From: Cupriavidus oxalaticus
GTDB lineage: Bacteria > Pseudomonadota > Gammaproteobacteria > Burkholderiales > Burkholderiaceae
Length of the DNA: 64,000 nt
NCBI RefSeq assembly: GCF_016894385.1
Contig: NZ_CP069812.1
Location: forward strand, 1,116,001-1,180,000
Direction: 5' to 3'
Made by a program: the position numbers and the translations under genes. Each line of letters begins with the position of its first letter. The stretch's first letter is position 1. This document shows positions 11,691 to 41,632 of this stretch, in pieces. A model generated the notes under the pieces. The model ran no database searches and was not told where the DNA came from. It was given only the letters and a program-made list of their open reading frames with translations.

Positions 11691-11725
11691 ACCTTCCGCC
11701 CGCGATCGACCGCGCCATCGCATGA

Positions 11726-11755
11726 CGGCCGCCAGCCACGCTGGCGGCCGTTTTT
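11726..11755 (+). terminator. rho-independent terminator after gntK
   Basis: A perfect 10-bp stem CGGCCGCCAG / CTGGCGGCCG with a 5-base loop is followed by five T. It closes the edd-gntK unit 35 bp after the gntK stop. Confidence 0.9.
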
Positions 11756-12002
11756 GCGTGCGCTGGCAGACATCTTGCTAGCTCACTTTCCGTGCCGGCC
11801 GCGATCCGCCAGCTTGCGGCTTTCGCCGGTACAGGTATGCTGAAAGGGCCAGTGACTCGACAGCATCGCCGCGCCAATGCCATCGGAGACCATCCCGAAC
11901 AACGCGCGGCGGGCTTGTGGCAGGACAGCCAGGTCAAACCAGGGCGGCCGGATGCGGGGCAGTGGCAGCACCCGACGCCCACTACATGGAGGAACGGCCA
12001 TC
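11756..12002. other. leader region of the Anbu cluster
   Basis: About 250 bp without a credible gene between the gntK terminator and the ATP-grasp gene. A TATGCT hexamer at about 11837 could be a -10 element but no convincing -35 is seen. A good ribosome binding site, GGAGG, lies at the 3' end about 12 bases before the ATG at 12003. Confidence 0.4.
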
Positions 12003-13478
12003 ATGGCGGGGCGGTTTTTCGACGAGATGCTGGACTGGCGCGCCGACGGGGCGCCCACGGTCATCCAGGCAGGGCAGGCATTGCCCGACGGGGCGGTACG
12101 CCCGCATTACCGGCATTTCGCTGACTGGCTGGCGCGGCAGTCCGGCAGCACCATGGACAACAAGCGAGCCGAGGCGGACCTGATCTTCCGGCGCGTGGGC
12201 ATTACCTTTGCCGTCTATGGCGACAAGGACGAGGCCAACAGCGGCACCGAGCGCACCATCCCCTTCGACGTGATCCCGCGCATTTTCCCGGCCAGCGAAT
12301 GGGCGCTGCTGGAAAAAGGCCTGCGCCAGCGCGTGGCCGCGCTGAACCGGTTCATCCACGACATCTACCACGGCCAGGACATCATCCGCGCCGGCGTGAT
12401 CCCGCCCGACCAGATCTACAACAACGCCCAGTACCGGCCGGAGATGCTTGGCGTCAACGTACCGCACGACATCTATGCGCACGTCGCCGGCATCGACGTG
12501 GTGCGTGCCGGCGAGGGCGAGTTCTACGTGCTGGAAGACAACCTGCGCGTGCCCTCCGGCGTGTCGTACATGCTCGAGAACCGCAAGATGATGATGCGGC
12601 TGTTCCCGGACCTGTTCGCGCGCAACCGCGTTGCGCCGGTGGCGCACTATCCGGACCTGCTGCTCGACATGCTGCGCGGCGTGTCGCCGCAGGCGATCGC
12701 CGATCCCACGGTGGTGGTGCTGACCCCGGGCATGTACAACTCGGCGTACTTCGAGCACGCCTTCCTGGCGCAGCAGATGGGCGTTGAACTGGTCGAAGGC
12801 AGCGATCTGTTCGTCGAGGACGACCACCTGTTCATGCGTACCACGCAGGGGCCGCAGCGCATCGACGTGATCTACCGGCGCGTCGACGACGACTTCCTCG
12901 ACCCGCTGGTGTTCCGGCACGATTCCGCGCTGGGCGCGGCCGGGCTGCTGTCGGTCTACCGTGCCGGCAACGTGACCATCTGCAATGCGATCGGCACCGG
13001 CGTGGCGGACGACAAGTCGATCTATCCGTACGTGCCCGACATGATCCGCTTCTACCTCGGCGAGGAGGTCATCCTCAATAATGTACCCACGTACATGTGC
13101 CGGCGTCCCGACGACCTGCAGTACGTGCTCGAGCATATGGACGAACTGGTGGTCAAGGAAACCCACGGCGCGGGCGGCTACGGCATGCTGGTGGGACCGG
13201 CCGCGACGCGCGCCGAGATCGATGCCTTCCGCGAGGTGGTCAAGTCCAGGCCCGAGCAGTACATCGCGCAGCCGACGCTGGCGCTGTCGACCTGCCCGAC
13301 CTATGTGGAGTCGGGCATCGCCCCGCGCCATATCGACCTGCGCCCGTTCGTGCTGTCGGGCAAGGAGGTGCGCATGGTGCCCGGCGGGCTGACGCGCGTG
13401 GCGCTGCGCGAGGGCTCGCTGGTGGTCAATTCCTCGCAAGGAGGCGGCACCAAGGACACCTGGGTGCTGGAACGATGA
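12003..13478 (+). CDS. circularly permuted ATP-grasp protein (COG2308), Anbu cluster
   Basis: 491-residue member of the circularly permuted ATP-grasp type 2 family (COG2308), predicted to form amide or peptide bonds using ATP. The start at 12003 has GGAGGAAC upstream. Visible family blocks: FRRVGITFAVYGD near 58, ERTIPFDVIPRI near 83, VLEDNLRVPSGVSYMLENRKMM near 178-200, DVIYRRVDDDFLDPL near 288, KETHGAGGYGMLVGP near 385 and the end SSQGGGTKDTWVLER. It begins a same-strand series ATP-grasp, alpha-E, transglutaminase-like, Anbu. This known gene neighbourhood has been proposed to make and degrade an unknown peptide or peptide tag. The real substrate is not established. Confidence 0.93.
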   Translation: MAGRFFDEMLDWRADGAPTVIQAGQALPDGAVRPHYRHFADWLARQSGSTMDNKRAEADLIFRRVGITFAVYGDKDEANSGTERTIPFDVIPRIFPASEWALLEKGLRQRVAALNRFIHDIYHGQDIIRAGVIPPDQIYNNAQYRPEMLGVNVPHDIYAHVAGIDVVRAGEGEFYVLEDNLRVPSGVSYMLENRKMMMRLFPDLFARNRVAPVAHYPDLLLDMLRGVSPQAIADPTVVVLTPGMYNSAYFEHAFLAQQMGVELVEGSDLFVEDDHLFMRTTQGPQRIDVIYRRVDDDFLDPLVFRHDSALGAAGLLSVYRAGNVTICNAIGTGVADDKSIYPYVPDMIRFYLGEEVILNNVPTYMCRRPDDLQYVLEHMDELVVKETHGAGGYGMLVGPAATRAEIDAFREVVKSRPEQYIAQPTLALSTCPTYVESGIAPRHIDLRPFVLSGKEVRMVPGGLTRVALREGSLVVNSSQGGGTKDTWVLER

Positions 13479-13545
13479 CGACGACACCCCATCACGCAAT
13501 CAACACCGGCAACAACCCCGCCGCCGCCATGCGAGGAGAGCCCAC

Positions 13546-14499
13546 ATGCTGAGCCGTACCGCCGACCACCTGTTCTGGATGGCCCGCTACACCGAGCGCG
13601 CGGAAAACACCGCGCGCATGCTCGACGTCAACTACCAGACCTCGCTGCTGCCGCAATCGGCCGAGGTGGCCGAGCAGGGCTGGTGGGCCATGCTGGATAT
13701 CTCCGAGCTGACGCAGGCCTTCGACCACAAGTACGGCTTGCTGTCGCGCGACGACGTGATCGATTTCATGGTGCGCGACATGACCAATGTGTCGTCGATC
13801 ATGAGTTGCCTGCGCGCGGCCCGCGAGAACGCGCGCGCGGTGCGCGGCTCGCTGACCACCGAAGTCTGGGAAACCGTCAACACCACCTGGCTCGACGTGC
13901 AGCGCATGATCGCCGACGGCGTGCTCAGGGAAGACCCGTCGCGATTTTTTGAATGGGTCAAGTTCCGCTCGCACCTGGCGCGCGGCGTGCAGTTCGGCAC
14001 CATGCTCAAGGACGATGCCTTCCACTTCATGCGGCTGGGCACCTTCCTGGAGCGCGCCGACAATACCGCGCGAATCCTCGACGTCAAGTTCCAGGCCTCG
14101 GGCAGCGACGACAGCAATCCCAACCGCGAGCAGAACGATTTCTACCACTGGGCCGCGGTGCTGCGCTCGGTGTCCGGCTTCGAGGTCTACCGCAAGGTCT
14201 ATCGCGCGGTGGTCACGCCGCAGCGCGTGGCCGAACTGCTGGTGCTGCGCCCCGACATGCCGCGCTCGCTGGTGTCGAGCATGGACGAGGTGGTGACGAT
14301 CCTGGCCATGGTGCGCAACCAGCAGTCGGCGGAGACCGAGCGGCAGGCTGGTAAACTCCACGCCGACCTGAAGTACGCGCGCATCGACGATATCTTTGCC
14401 GTCGGCCTGCACGCGTACCTGACCAGCTTTCTGGAGCGCATCGGCGATCTCGGCAACGGCATCAGCCGGGACTTCCTGGTGCCGCTGCAGGCGGCCTGA
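13546..14499 (+). CDS. alpha-E domain protein (COG2307), Anbu cluster
   Basis: 317-residue all-alpha protein of the alpha-E family (COG2307), named for its helical content and conserved glutamates. It begins MLSRTADHLFWMARYTERAENTARML, the diagnostic N-terminus, and repeats the same kind of motif near residue 170 (LGTFLERADNTARILDVKF). It starts at the ATG at 13546 behind GAGGAGAGCC. It sits between the ATP-grasp and transglutaminase-like genes; in many bacteria the ATP-grasp and alpha-E domains are fused, so the two products probably act as one complex. No enzymatic function is known for the domain, and it may serve as a partner or tRNA/peptide-binding module. That last point is inference only. 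Confidence 0.93.
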   Translation: MLSRTADHLFWMARYTERAENTARMLDVNYQTSLLPQSAEVAEQGWWAMLDISELTQAFDHKYGLLSRDDVIDFMVRDMTNVSSIMSCLRAARENARAVRGSLTTEVWETVNTTWLDVQRMIADGVLREDPSRFFEWVKFRSHLARGVQFGTMLKDDAFHFMRLGTFLERADNTARILDVKFQASGSDDSNPNREQNDFYHWAAVLRSVSGFEVYRKVYRAVVTPQRVAELLVLRPDMPRSLVSSMDEVVTILAMVRNQQSAETERQAGKLHADLKYARIDDIFAVGLHAYLTSFLERIGDLGNGISRDFLVPLQAA

Positions 14500-14552
14500 C
14501 ATGGGCACGCCGGCGGCCATGTGCTGTGGCCGCCGCGTCGTGCCCTGATACC

Positions 14553-15398
14553 GTGAAATACAAGATCCATCACCATACCGTCTACCGCTATGCCGAGCCC
14601 GTGCGCCGCAGCGTGCACGAGCTGCGGCTCGAGCCGCGCTCGGGCCCGCTGCAGACCGTGCACAGCTGGCGGCTGAGCACGCCGGGCAACCCGTCGGCGG
14701 CGCGCGATGGCTTCGGCAACATCGTGCACAACTTCACCGTGGCGGGCCCGGCGGACACCATCGCCATCGAAGCCAGCGGCGAAGTGGAAGTGCTGCCGCC
14801 ACACGGCGACCTTGACCGCGATGGGCACCATGCTTTCTGCGATGCGCCGCCGCCAGGCGAATCGCGGGTGTCGCCGCTGTACTTCCTTGGCAGCACGCCG
14901 CTGACCACGGCGCCGCCCGAGATGCAGGCCTTTGCCGCGCCGTTCCTGGCCTCGGGCCACGAGATCCCCGCGCTGCTGGCGCTGGCGCAGGCCATCGGCG
15001 AGCGCGTACGCTACAAGCCCAACACCACCGACGTCGGCACCTCCGCCGCCGAGGCCTTCAGCCTGGGTAGTGGCGTTTGCCAGGACCAGGCGCAAGTGAT
15101 GGTGGCCGCGTGCCGGGCCCTGGGTATCCCTGCGCGCTATGTGAGTGGATACTTCTATGATGCGGTGGCCACCGATCTGGCCAGCCATGCATGGGCAGAC
15201 GTCTGCCTGGATCCCGAGCGCGAGATCTGGTGCAGCCTCGATATCACCCACGGCTGCGTGACCGACGAGCGCCACGTGCGCCTTGCGGTGGGGCGTGATT
15301 ACCAATCCGCTGCACCGGTCCGGGGCATCCTGAAGGGGGGCGCCGGCGAGACGCTTGAAGTCAATGTCAGCATCACGCCACTTCCGGACCAGGGCTGA
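14553..15398 (+). CDS. transglutaminase-like cysteine protease (COG1305), Anbu cluster
   Basis: 281-residue protein of the transglutaminase-like superfamily, with an N-terminal beta-rich domain followed by a cysteine-protease fold. The GTG at 14553 is preferred because family members start with a Lys-Tyr-x-Ile-x-His beta strand; an in-frame GTG at 14526 would add nine residues. The catalytic triad is visible: Cys in GSGVCQDQA near residue 176, His in ASHAWADV near 211, and Asp in CSLDITHG near 228. It follows the alpha-E gene by about 50 bp and precedes Anbu. In the cluster it is expected to cut or transfer an amide bond; the substrate is unknown. Confidence 0.9.
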   Translation: MKYKIHHHTVYRYAEPVRRSVHELRLEPRSGPLQTVHSWRLSTPGNPSAARDGFGNIVHNFTVAGPADTIAIEASGEVEVLPPHGDLDRDGHHAFCDAPPPGESRVSPLYFLGSTPLTTAPPEMQAFAAPFLASGHEIPALLALAQAIGERVRYKPNTTDVGTSAAEAFSLGSGVCQDQAQVMVAACRALGIPARYVSGYFYDAVATDLASHAWADVCLDPEREIWCSLDITHGCVTDERHVRLAVGRDYQSAAPVRGILKGGAGETLEVNVSITPLPDQG

Positions 15399-15541
15399 GA
15401 CACTGGCTCGCGCGGAGATGCGAGTTAGGTGCGGCACTCCATATCGGCACATCAAGGCGGCAGCGGCGCTAGAATCCCGGTTACTGCAGGCCTCCGGCCC
15501 GGCCACTCCCGGCCGCCCGGCAAGAACACCACAACAAGACC

Positions 15542-16363
15542 ATGACGTATTGTGTAGCCATGCGGCTCGACGCCGGCCTGGTATTCCTGTCCGACTCCCG
15601 CACCAACGCCGGCGTGGACGCCATCTCGACGGCACGCAAGATGACGGTGTTCGAAGAACCCGGCGACCGCGTCATGGTGCTGATGACCGCGGGCAATCTC
15701 GCCATCAGCCAGTCGGTGCGGCAGATCCTGGCCGAGAACCATGACGACAAGCGCTCGCTGTGGAATGCGCGCGACATGTTCGAGGCCGCCTCCATCGTCG
15801 GCGACGCGGTGCGCCAGGTGCACAAGCGCGACGCGCACGCGCTGCGCGATGCCGGCATCGAATTCAATGTCAGCCTGATCTTCGGCGGCCAGGTCCGGGG
15901 CGAGCGGGTGCGGCTGTTCAACATCTATGCTGCCGGCAACTTCGTCGAAGCCACCCCGGAAAACTGTTATTTCCAGATCGGCGAGGCCAAGTACGGCAAG
16001 CCCATCATCGACCGCGTCGTGCATCCTTCGTTGCCGCTGGCCGAGGGGGCAAAATGCGCGCTGATCTCGATGGATTCGACGCTGAAGTCGAATATTTCGG
16101 TGGGTTTGCCGCTGGACCTGCTGGTCTACGAGGCGGATTCGCTGCGCGTGACACGTTTCGTCAACATCGATGAACGCAACGCCTATTTCCGCATGATCCG
16201 CGATACCTGGGGCCACCGGCTGCGGCAGGTGTTCGGCGAAATCCACAATCCCGAATGGGATCCGGCCCAGCAGGCCGATTTCCCGCTCGCACGCAGTGGC
16301 GAGGGCGACTGCTGGGGGCAGCCCGTGCGCGCCAGGCGCAATCCCTCCCGCACCCAGGAATGA
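15542..16363 (+). CDS. Anbu proteasome-type protease (COG3484)
   Basis: 273-residue N-terminal-nucleophile hydrolase of the Anbu family ('ancestral beta subunit'), related to HslV and 20S proteasome beta subunits. After removal of Met the protein begins Thr-Tyr-Cys-Val, placing the nucleophile at Thr1. Asp17 lies in FLSDSRT, and Lys32 by simple counting corresponds to the conserved Lys33. Further family blocks are VMVLMTAGNLAISQSVR and FNVSLIFGGQV. Solved homologues form open helical or lock-washer oligomers, and none has a proven natural substrate. There is no ATPase partner such as HslU beside it. The C-terminus is about 20-25 residues longer than I expect for the family. Its stop overlaps a possible start of the next gene. 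Confidence 0.94.
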   Translation: MTYCVAMRLDAGLVFLSDSRTNAGVDAISTARKMTVFEEPGDRVMVLMTAGNLAISQSVRQILAENHDDKRSLWNARDMFEAASIVGDAVRQVHKRDAHALRDAGIEFNVSLIFGGQVRGERVRLFNIYAAGNFVEATPENCYFQIGEAKYGKPIIDRVVHPSLPLAEGAKCALISMDSTLKSNISVGLPLDLLVYEADSLRVTRFVNIDERNAYFRMIRDTWGHRLRQVFGEIHNPEWDPAQQADFPLARSGEGDCWGQPVRARRNPSRTQE

Positions 16364-16377
16364 GGGGCGGGGCGGCG

Positions 16378-17181
16378 ATGCGCGAGATCATCCATTTTTC
16401 GCATGCCAACGGCTTTCCGGTCACGACGTACCGCAAGCTGTTCGGCGAACTGGACGGCGAATTCGAATTCCGCGCCGTGGACCGTTACGGCCACCGGCCC
16501 CAGTTTCCGGTCACGCGCGGGTGGCCACACCTGGTGGAAGAACTGCTCGAGGAAGTGGGGCGCCAGTACCGCGAGCCGGTCTGGCTGGTGGGCCATTCGC
16601 TGGGCGGCTTCCTGTCGATGATGGCGGCGCTGCGCCGGCCCGAATGGGTGCGCGGCGTGGTGATGCTGGATTCGCCGATCATTGACGGCTGGCGCGCCTC
16701 GCTGCTGAAGACGGCGCAGGTGCTCGGCATCGACGAAAAGCCCGGTCCGGCGGCGGTGACGAAGAACCGGCGCACGCACTGGCCCGATGCCGAGGCCGTG
16801 TGGCAGCACTTCCGCGGCAAGCCGAATTTTGCCGTGTGGGACCAGGAGGTGCTGCGCGACTATGCGCTCCACGGCACCGAGCCGACCGGCAAGGACAACG
16901 AGCGGCGCCTGCGCTTCGACCGCGAGGTCGAGTACTGGATCTACCGCACGCTGCCGACCAGCCTGGGACGCAAGCTCAGGCGGGGCGCGCCGGTGCCGGT
17001 CGGCTTCGTCGCCGGCACGCGCTCGCGCGAGGTGCGCCAATGCGGCCTCGCGGCGACCCGCAAGCTGGTGGGCGAAAACCTGCGCTTTATCGAGGGCGGC
17101 CATTTGTACCCGATGGAGCGGCCGCAGGAAACGGCGCAACTGGTGCGCGACCTGATCGGAGCGATGCGCGGCGGGCGCTGA
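16378..17181 (+). CDS. alpha/beta-hydrolase fold protein next to Anbu
   Basis: 267-residue alpha/beta hydrolase of unknown substrate. It begins MREIIHFSHANGFPVTTYRKLF, and the nucleophile elbow GHSLGGF places Ser near residue 74; the acid is probably in LDSPIID or a later strand, and the His is in EGGHLYPMERP near the C-terminus. The ATG at 16378 has a GGGGCGG leader. An in-frame ATG at 16360 overlaps the Anbu stop (ATGA) and is an alternative that would couple translation. Its position as the last gene of the Anbu series suggests an operon, but this hydrolase is not a universal member of that neighbourhood. Confidence 0.85.
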   Translation: MREIIHFSHANGFPVTTYRKLFGELDGEFEFRAVDRYGHRPQFPVTRGWPHLVEELLEEVGRQYREPVWLVGHSLGGFLSMMAALRRPEWVRGVVMLDSPIIDGWRASLLKTAQVLGIDEKPGPAAVTKNRRTHWPDAEAVWQHFRGKPNFAVWDQEVLRDYALHGTEPTGKDNERRLRFDREVEYWIYRTLPTSLGRKLRRGAPVPVGFVAGTRSREVRQCGLAATRKLVGENLRFIEGGHLYPMERPQETAQLVRDLIGAMRGGR

Positions 17182-38918: not shown

Positions 38919-41632
38919 GCCGTGCCGACCGCCTCGCCTGCAAGCGCCTTGAGCCGGTACAGCGCATCGAGCGCGGCACGCGGCGTCAGGCTGTCCGGAT
39001 CCAGGTCGGCCAGCGTGTCGATCAGCGCGGCATGCTCCGGTGCAAGGTCGGCCGGCTGCGGTGTGGCGGCTGCATAGCCGTCGCCCCCCTCGTACCCATC
39101 GCCTTCGTCGTCATCGGTGTCCGGCAGCGTCGGCGCGGCGAACAGGTCGAGCTGCGGCGTCGGCGTGGCATCGGCCGATTGCTGCTCCAGCCATGCCAGG
39201 TGCTTGCGCGCGGCGCGGATCACCGGCTGCGGCACGCCGGCCAGCTGCGCCACCTGCAGGCCATAGCTCTGGCTGGCGGGACCATCCTGCACCGCATGCA
39301 GGAACACGATGCCGTCGCCATGCTCCACCGCGGACAGGTGCACGTTGGCGGCCTGCGGGAATTCCTGCGGCAACTGCGTCAGCTCGAAATAGTGCGTCGC
39401 GAACAGCGTATGGCTGCGGTTGTGCGACAGCAGGTGGCGCGCGATCGCCCACGCCAGCGCGAGCCCGTCGAAGGTGGACGTGCCGCGGCCGATCTCGTCC
39501 ATCAGCACCAGCGAAGACGGCGTGGCATGGTGCAGGATGCCGGCGGCTTCGGTCATTTCCACCATGAAGGTGGAGCGCCCGCCGGCCAGGTCGTCGGCCG
39601 CGCCGATGCGGGTAAAGATGCGGTCGATCGGGCCGATCACGGCGCGCCGCGCTGGCACGTAGGCGCCCACGCAGGCCAGCAGCACGATCAGCGCGGTCTG
39701 GCGCATGAAGGTCGACTTGCCGCCCATGTTGGGACCGGTGATCAGCAGCAGCTTGCGCGCTTCGTTGAGCTGGCAGTCGTTGGCGATAAACGCCACCGAT
39801 TCCGCTGCCAGCTGGCCTTCCACGACCGGGTGGCGGCCCTGCACGATGTCGACCACGTTCTCGCGCACGCGCTCGGGCGCGGACCAGTCCAGCGTCTGCG
39901 CGCGCTCGGCCAGCGCCGCCAGCACATCGAGGCGCGCCAGCGCGCCGGCCACGCGCTGCAGCTCGCCGATATGCGGCAGCAGCGCCTGCAGCAGGCCGTC
40001 GTACAGCTGCTTCTCGCGCGCCAGCGCGCGGTCCTGCGCCGACAGCGCCTTGTCCTCGAACGCCTTCAGCTCGGGCGTGATATAGCGCTCGGCATTCTTC
40101 AGTGTCTGGCGGCGGCGGTAGTCGTCGGGCACCTTGTCGGCCTGGCCATTGGTGACCTCGATATAGAAGCCATGCACGCGGTTGAATTCGACGCGCAGGT
40201 TGGCGATGCCGGTGCGCGTGCGTTCGCGTGCTTCCAGGTCGATCAGGAACTGGCCGCAGTTCTCGGAGATATCGCGCAGCTCGTCCAGCTGGGCGTCGTA
40301 GCCGCGCGCAATCACGCCGCCGTCGCGCACCACGGAGGCGGGTTCTTCGGCGACCGCGCGCACCAGCAGGTCCAGGGGCGCCTGCGGTACGGCCAGGTCC
40401 TGCAGCGTCTGCGCCAGCAGCTCGCTGTCCTGTTCGTCGCGGATGCAGCCCTGCACGTCGGGCAGCGCGCGCAGCGTATCGCGCAGCGAGGACAGGTCGC
40501 GCGGGCGCGCGCTCAGCAGCGCCAGGCGCGAGGTGATGCGCTCGACGTCGGCCAGCCGGCGCAGCGCGCCGCGCAGCGTATCGGTGCCCTGGTCGATCAG
40601 CGCGCCGATGGCCTGCTGCCGCGCCTGCGGCACGGCCGGGTCGCGCAGCGGATGGTGCAGCCAGTGCCGCAGCGCGCGGCTGCCCATCGTGGTGCAGCAG
40701 GTATCCAGCAGCGAGAACAGCGTCGGCGACTCGCCGCCGCGCAGCGTCTCGGTCAGCTCCAGGTTGCGGCGCGTGGCCGAATCCAGGCCAATGTATTCCG
40801 ACTCGCGTTCGACCTTCAGGCCCTGCACATGGCGCAGCGACTGGCCCTGCGTGGTGGCGGCGTAGTTCAGCAGCGCGCCGGCGGCGCCGATTGCCGCGCC
40901 CAGACCGGCACAGCCAAACGGATCGAGGCTGGCCACGCCCAGCTGCTCGCGCAGCCGGCGCGAGCCGGCATCCTGGTCGAAATGCCATTCGGGCAGGCGC
41001 GTGCGCGCGCAGGCCAGCGCCGGCAGGTCGATGCCGTCGGCATAGAGCAGTTCGGCCGGGCGGATGCGCTCCAGCTCGCGGCCCAGCTGCGCCACCTCGC
41101 ACTCCAGCAGGCGCAGCTCGCCGCTGGCCAGGTTCAGCCACGCAAGGCCGGTCTTGCTGACGCCGCGGCGCGTCGTCTGCTGGTGCACCGCCATCAGGAA
41201 GGTGTCGACCTTGTCCGGCAGCAGCGCCGCGTCGGTCAGCGTGCCCGGCGTGACGATGCGCACCACCTTGCGCTCTACCGGTCCCTTGCTGGTGGCGGGA
41301 TCGCCGATCTGCTCGCAGATCGCCACCGACTCGCCCAGCTTCACCAGCCGGGCCAGGTACTGGTCCGCCGAATGGAAGGGAATGCCGGCCATCCGGATCG
41401 GCACGCCATTCGAGGCGCCACGCGCGGTCAGCGTGATGTCGAGCAGGCGCGCGGCCTTCTCGGCGTCGTCGTGGAACAGCTCGTAGAAGTCACCCATGCG
41501 ATAGAACAGCAGGGTGTCGGGGTGGTCTGCCTTGATGCGCAAATATTGCTGCATCATGGGAGTGTGGCGGCTGCCTGCGGCGTCTGCCTGTGCCTGTTCA
41601 GGGTCGGTTTTCTTCTGCAATCCCATTGCCAT
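38915..41632 (-). CDS. mutS: DNA mismatch repair protein MutS
   Basis: Mismatch recognition ATPase. 905 residues, start ATG 41630-41632. The mismatch-contacting Phe-x-Glu is in [12 protein letters not shown] near residue 48, the P-loop is [13 protein letters not shown] near 640, Walker [17 protein letters not shown] near 720 and ATHYFELT near 755. The N-terminus has about 25 residues before the usual HTPMMQQYL start. The C-terminal tail contains an acidic, Gly/Tyr-rich segment ([13 protein letters not shown]) before the dimer/tetramer domain. Confidence 0.97.

Follow-up and report, generated by a model that had tools for sequence, protein, structure and literature searches.

What would an Anbu gene cluster make or break, and under which condition would a cell need it? 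The DNA analysed here, a stretch of 64,000 nucleotides from Cupriavidus oxalaticus (contig NZ_CP069812.1, positions 1,116,001 to 1,180,000; hereafter the window), carries such a cluster, in which a predicted ATP-grasp ligase, an alpha-E protein and a transglutaminase-like cysteine enzyme are followed by Anbu, a proteasome-like N-terminal nucleophile (Ntn) hydrolase, and the published papers drawn on give the Anbu operon no known function. An earlier note, made from the bare sequence, had placed the four genes in this order on the forward strand at 12003-16363, had assigned them to a known family and had named the catalytic residues of three of the products. Open reading frames (ORFs), Pfam matches and PDB matches agree on the order, matches to Pfam families and to solved Anbu structures bear out the family, and the residues named in Anbu, the transglutaminase-like protein and the ATP-grasp protein are present and conserved across the stretches that we fetched. 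Judged by its sequence, the cluster is an intact and ordinary member of a known gene set. The strongest lead on its function, absent from the earlier note, is sigma-54 and nitrogen control, and we regard as evenly balanced the proposal that this intact Anbu operon member works as an amide ligase/hydrolase module of nitrogen starvation.

Composition and catalytic residues of the cluster

Conservation was followed in 80 hand-picked Pseudomonadota stretches and the window, whose own row is counted. The Anbu residues Thr1, Asp17 and Lys32 (mature numbering) are all present in the window, and Asp17 and Lys32 occur in 61/61 Anbu proteins and Thr1 in 60/61; one Anbu (L137:9060-9791) carries Ser in place of Thr1. 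The triad of the transglutaminase-like protein, Cys176-His212-Asp230 in the numbering of the 281-residue product, is likewise retained (Cys in 74/76, His and Asp in 76/76). The ATP-grasp protein of the window has Asp165, Glu178-Asp179-Asn180-x-Arg182, Lys385 and the glycine loop, whose metal and ATP roles are those of ATP-grasp enzymes generally. Glu178 and Asn180 are found in 70 of 80 such proteins, namely in 70/70 unfused proteins and in 0/10 fused ATP-grasp/alpha-E proteins, and Lys385 is kept in all 70 unfused proteins and lost in nine of the ten fused ones. Active-type and inactive-type ATP-grasp proteins thus both exist, in agreement with the description of PF04168. Only the active type is present in the window, where the ligase, going by its PF14403 match and its retained metal and ATP residues, is of that type.

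The Pfam families matched are CP_ATPgrasp_2 and CP_ATPgrasp_1 for the ligase, Alpha-E for the second protein, Bact_transglu_N and Transglut_core for the third and Proteasome for Anbu (coordinates and scores in Table 1). The Anbu match to PF00227, at 21.7 bits, lies slightly below the Pfam cut-off of 22.4; matches to the solved Anbu structures 5loy, 5nyw, 5nyj, 5nyf and 5lox range from E 2.8e-90 to 3.2e-63, and all five alignments run from residue 1 or 2 to residues 234-240. The ligase aligns over residues 26-490 (E 3.3e-214) with 3n6x, a homologue from Methylobacillus flagellatus whose label, putative glutathionylspermidine synthase, is the depositors' molecule name only, and 3isr matches the transglutaminase core (E 2.3e-10). 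None of the four proteins matched NCBIfam at E 0.001. For the ligase, the earliest start in the ORF listing is 11877 and the ATG at 12003 was used; for the transglutaminase-like gene, the listed start at 14526 is the first GTG past a stop and the GTG at 14553 was picked by eye.

In the genome as a whole (6.69 Mb, two contigs), alpha-E, PF14403, PF08379 and the Anbu protein each have a single match, and the Anbu genes with a name that come closest belong to Cupriavidus (99%). Three proteins of the genome belong to PF00227 (G000:C2:144606-145121, 1335979-1336524 and 1131548-1132090); they are one that is presumably HslV, BPH (5ovu, E 1.5e-106) and Anbu. HslV and BPH are proteasome-like Ntn-hydrolases as Anbu is, but Anbu differs from them in sitting with ligase genes. 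Unlike a 20S proteasome or an HslV-type machine, the cluster has no AAA+ partner gene: Pfam revealed no AAA+ unfoldase among the four genes and three neighbours in the window, the only stretch scanned for one. The Anbu of relatives forms an open, split-ring assembly, as described in part of one paper (PMC8665760).

A sigma-54 promoter-like site and probable nitrogen control

Scored against the sigma-54 consensus (GG at -24, GC at -12), the region upstream of the ligase gene contains the site TGGCAGACATCTTGCT, which stood out at p 0.005 in a comparison with 200 shuffles. Across the 64-kb window TGGCAN6TTGCW has two matches where 0.29 are expected; the other match (TGGCAATGGGATTGCA, 41616-41631) lies on the reverse strand. 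Among close relatives (59 loci from Cupriavidus, Ralstonia and allies, 60 with the window), TGGC[AT]N3AT[CT]TTGCT was found in 50/60 loci, 38 times between genes and 12 times within comEC, and in Cupriavidus the same site has the top sigma-54 score in the 400 nt searched upstream. The 38 intergenic copies stand 122-255 nt from the ATP-grasp ATG, none of 105 flanking positions reaches at least 90% identity (median 47%, highest 87%), and a looser form of the pattern has 62 matches on both strands of all 60 loci, or 0.026 per kb including these sites. Agreement at the consensus positions of the site is imposed by the search pattern, and position 7, which the pattern leaves free, is 92% identical across the 38 loci. 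Because the site is present at varying distance in all 38 loci, its flanks are unconserved and the looser pattern is rare, the site appears to be constrained.

The 12 copies within comEC belong to Ralstonia and relatives and to Protistobacter (L036-L046 and L060), where a near-identical 16-mer in the 3' part of the gene encodes ADILL. It stands upstream of the ATP-grasp gene, at a distance of 429-436 nt in 11 loci and of 300 nt in L060. One of them, L040, has an in-frame stop upstream of the 16-mer. In Ralstonia and relatives comEC is directly upstream of the cluster; in the window rpiR-like, edd-like (a name assigned by eye) and gluconokinase-like genes stand between, and it looks as if a putative promoter formerly within comEC was retained once that gene moved away. 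L015 and L050, two of the ten loci that lack the site, are also without an ATP-grasp match in their stretch.

In the wider set of lineages, scanned at a strict score of at least 26, a site precedes 16/70 ATP-grasp genes against 6/261 other genes (shuffle expectation 1.2; Fisher p 9e-8, which is approximate since relatedness varies among the loci and the 'other' starts are uncorrected). The remaining classes gave 1/61 for Anbu, 0/70 for alpha-E, 0/62 for the small transglutaminase, 2/14 for the large transglutaminase and 0/13 for fused ATP-grasp; ATP-grasp and the other core genes were scanned from corrected starts, and fused, large-transglutaminase and other genes from their longest-ORF starts. 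The genome of the window has rpoN. Taken together, a conserved -24 GG/-12 GC site, best described as sigma-54 promoter-like, precedes the lead gene, and by analogy with other species we infer that it is an active promoter with an NtrC-type activator.

Nitrogen control of related modules has been reported elsewhere, in the portions of the papers on which we draw. When an ntrC mutant of Burkholderia cenocepacia is limited for nitrogen, the genes I35_5080-83, which encode DUF404/407, DUF403 and two transglutaminase-like proteins, change by log2 -8.2, -9.4, -9.4 and -6.0 (glnA by -4.8), and they are counted among common NtrC/sigma-54 targets (PMC5491218). They share the ATP-grasp, alpha-E and transglutaminase-like genes with our cluster, and differ in that the fourth gene listed is a large transglutaminase-like one where Anbu stands here (PMC5491218). 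In Pseudomonas putida, PP_2686-2688 rise 12.6-, 11.0- and 14.7-fold in the wild type under nitrogen limitation (RNA-Seq; PMC7801951). COG3484 has been placed in a predicted sigma-54 regulon (PMC12316311), networks from marine metagenomes associate these domains with urea metabolism domains (PMC3597751), and passages on Sinorhizobium, Azospirillum and Bifidobacterium also mention the family. The parts of PMC5748707 and PMC4676750 searched held no relevant passage, a search for literature on the presumed C. necator tags H16_A1180-1185 returned none, and a mention of DUF403 in phage JC1 was set aside as a prefix match to a different DUF number. Nitrogen control of the module is thus already published for other species and the Cupriavidus site was not found in print; in the genome of the window, the cluster most probably belongs to the response to nitrogen starvation.

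Distribution, gene order and neighbours

In the same 299 Pseudomonadota genomes, with the printed lists compared by eye, alpha-E was found in 171 and Anbu in 115; of the latter, 113 hold both genes. No Anbu match was obtained in 58/171 alpha-E genomes, which makes Anbu an optional part; we regard the ligase and alpha-E as the core of the module and Anbu as an add-on. Anbu is present in 61 of the 81 stretches (the 80 and the window), which were picked for diversity and odd arrangements, so that these counts are not frequencies. The order ATP-grasp, alpha-E, transglutaminase, Anbu on one strand is seen in 36/61, ATP-grasp and alpha-E are otherwise arranged in 14/61, and 11/61 are without either; of the 11, two come from genomes with no match to the partner families and nine from genomes with alpha-E elsewhere. 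Among the close relatives, 58/60 loci keep the four genes in that same order and orientation, so the cluster is not a product of chance. In L015 (Cupriavidus sp. UYMMa02A), Anbu and the hydrolase described below are present with no ATP-grasp match in the stretch, and the alpha-E gene of this strain lies on a 24,947-base contig (P0002), which suggests rearrangement or an assembly error. In passages of two papers (PMC6376114, PMC5666114), the Anbu operons of Yersinia bercovieri and Pseudomonas show the same four-gene order and catalytic residues, and the Anbu of the window is of their kind by sequence; the window differs from them in the hydrolase after Anbu, the flanking gluconokinase-like gene and pyrG, and the mapped sigma-54 site.

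Table 1. Features of the cluster and its surroundings (window positions)
Feature	Position	Strand	Details
ATP-grasp (COG2308, circularly permuted type 2 ligase)	12003-13478	+	491 aa; PF14403 E 1.9e-168, PF04174
Alpha-E (COG2307, formerly DUF403)	13546-14499	+	317 aa; PF04168 E 7.7e-100
Transglutaminase-like cysteine enzyme	14553-15398	+	281 aa; PF08379 E 2.8e-24, PF01841 E 1.7e-21
Anbu, proteasome-like Ntn-hydrolase	15542-16363	+	273 aa; Thr1/Asp17/Lys32
Alpha/beta hydrolase	16378-17181	+	starts 14 nt past the Anbu stop; Pfam and PDB matches
Terminator-like hairpin	11725-11755	+	12-nt arms 11725-11736 and 11740-11751, then four T; found by eye
Sigma-54 (-24/-12) promoter-like site TGGCAGACATCTTGCT	11764-11779	+	239 nt before the ATP-grasp ATG

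The alpha/beta hydrolase is possibly a fifth gene of the transcript in Cupriavidus. It has a match in 44/60 close relatives; in 42 the match falls no more than 600 nt downstream of Anbu, and the L024 copy is farther off; it is missing from 14/60 relatives with enough sequence, and two stretches are too short. A hydrolase also adjoins Anbu in 3/60 wider Anbu stretches (L130, L131 and L142), all without an ATP-grasp match in the stretch. On the other side of the cluster, the terminator-like hairpin sits 3' of the gluconokinase-like gene and 5' of the sigma-54-like site; a consensus terminator scanner did not call it.

ORFs of at least 60 aa from the 80 stretches and 20 kb of the window were clustered, and clusters in at least four loci were viewed over their first 50 residues; a second comparison took in 3383 short ORFs (22-110 aa) lying no more than 3 kb from core genes, a length at which BLAST is weak. 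No co-encoded gene for a small substrate adjoining the cluster was found by either approach, a modest negative given that weakness and one for which no genome-wide co-occurrence search was made, and no short-ORF cluster extended across more than two loci, the eight shown linking L196 and L198. Several large ORF clusters were set aside, since by position and sequence they seem to be shadows that core genes cast in antisense or alternate frames. Dehydrogenase-like and ABC-ATPase-like clusters, in 10 loci each, were taken as presumed common paralogues, the latter in 10/81 stretches including the window. Beyond these, ORF clustering of the 81 stretches showed no further module gene apart from a second cluster type (a large transglutaminase of ~1100 aa, fused ATP-grasp/alpha-E and another transglutaminase) and Peptidase_Mx. 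The zinc-ribbon Peptidase_Mx cluster lies near ATP-grasp/alpha-E in L125, L127, L128, L190 and L191, Pfam having been run on the L190 copy only.

A proposed module for making and breaking amides, and its rivals

Under nitrogen shortage, a sigma-54 enhancer-binding protein, most likely NtrC, would activate the upstream promoter, from which the four genes, and perhaps the hydrolase gene as a fifth, would be co-transcribed. With a build like that of glutathione and glutathionylspermidine synthetases, the ATP-grasp enzyme would turn a carboxylate into an acyl phosphate and join it to an amine. Alpha-E would work next to the ligase, where its conserved Arg and Glu probably bind an anionic substrate or hold it in position, a role suggested by conservation and by the natural fusions. 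The transglutaminase-like enzyme, and Anbu where present, may then hydrolyse or transfer the amides so formed, or others, and so recycle nitrogen. The earlier note had proposed that the ligase and alpha-E form a peptide bond on an acceptor while the two proteases trim or remove it, which in essence restates what Iyer et al. 2009 had put forward, as cited in parts of PMC6376114, PMC5666114 and PMC3597751; our findings are compatible with it. Release of phosphate from ATP by the ATP-grasp protein of an Anbu operon has been reported (PMC6376114, in part).

Several observations weigh against the nitrogen-starvation module. Among the close relatives, eight loci (L049 and L051-L057) have the ATP-grasp gene without a Cupriavidus-type site, and constraint on the comEC protein may explain the 12 internal copies, although not the 38 intergenic ones. 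In the wider set, 54/70 lead ATP-grasp genes lack a site at the strict score, and no conserved NtrC-like dyad was seen beside the site in 40 dereplicated loci; sequences that differ from an NtrC pattern at no more than one position occur in 27/49 loci, a count not shown to be above chance. An rpoN mutant of P. putida still induces PP_2686, PP_2687 and PP_2688 (14.2-, 16.0- and 19.6-fold), which speaks against a strict need for sigma-54. The Anbu gene, PP_2685, changes only 1.12-fold in the wild type; in the same partly seen source, urea transporter genes behave like PP_2686-2688, the authors credit NtrB/NtrC for both, and two other studies are cited in which PP_2685 is induced (PMC7801951). 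According to passages of PMC6376114, the Anbu proteins tested showed no peptidase activity and the operon proteins no specific interactions. Finally, two genomes of one genus (G094 and G248) keep Anbu, with Thr1, Asp17 and Lys32 retained, and alpha-E, PF14403 and PF08379 were not found in them. The missing peptidase activity and interactions, Anbu without its partners and the alpha-E genomes without Anbu together argue against a simple version of the published mechanism.

Alternatively, the ligase might add a peptide tag to proteins and Anbu remove the tag or degrade the tagged protein, as ubiquitin and Pup systems do, in keeping with the homology of Anbu to the proteasome and with the sharing of alpha-E by 113/115 Anbu genomes; several structural relatives of the ligase, however, join small molecules, a small conserved protein gene was not seen near the clusters, the window's cluster is without an AAA+ gene, and neither the Anbu kept without a ligase in G094 and G248 nor the 58 alpha-E genomes without Anbu fit such a pathway. 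This explanation, a published hypothesis summarised in a passage of PMC6376114, seems to us unlikely. Less easily dismissed, though still rather improbable, is synthesis of a small peptide or conjugate for storage, export or signalling, in which the hydrolases merely tailor a di- or tripeptide-like metabolite: the glutathione-synthetase-like fold of the ligase, the E-64 pathway ligase Cp1B among its matches and the strong nitrogen control in the published data seen in part would all suit it, but no transporter gene seems specific to the cluster, the ABC-ATPase group being a presumed common paralogue, and nitrogen-starved cells might save amino nitrogen rather than spend it. That Anbu acts alone, as a starvation protease or amidohydrolase sharing only regulation with the ligase genes, would account for the 11/61 Anbu stretches that lack ATP-grasp and alpha-E and keep Thr1, Asp17 and Lys32, two of these coming from genomes that gave no match to the partner families; the nine others, from genomes with alpha-E elsewhere, and the 113/115 co-occurrence make this very doubtful.

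For the amide ligase/hydrolase module that we prefer, structure offers some guidance. Alpha-E is confidently predicted to be all-helical with an internal duplication, its halves aligning with each other at 98% probability (E 1.3e-12) and repeating an ER motif (E17-R18 and E169-R170); a single-sequence search of the PDB gave no match, and Foldseek found no significant PDB match to the predicted model. The model of a fused ATP-grasp/alpha-E relative (predicted template modelling score, pTM, 0.82) matches 3n6x first (E 1.9e-24), followed by glutathione synthetases, Cp1B, YgiC and glutathionylspermidine synthetase. Of these, Cp1B acts as a ligase in a fungal E-64 pathway (PMC12568646, in part), and the passages searched in graspetide papers do not treat the ATP-grasp/alpha-E family. 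A bolder version, on which we would not count, holds that alpha-E has a novel helical fold made by duplication, and that its conserved Arg and Glu supply the second active site in an amide ligase of two parts, which with the transglutaminase-like enzyme and Anbu would run a cycle of amide making and breaking that banks or recycles nitrogen under starvation in many Proteobacteria.

Placement of the cluster in nitrogen starvation, together with a mapped candidate promoter in Cupriavidus, a genus that includes the laboratory strain C. necator H16, gives a condition under which its product may be sought, and Anbu is an optional part of a wider, ligase-centred module and not its centre.

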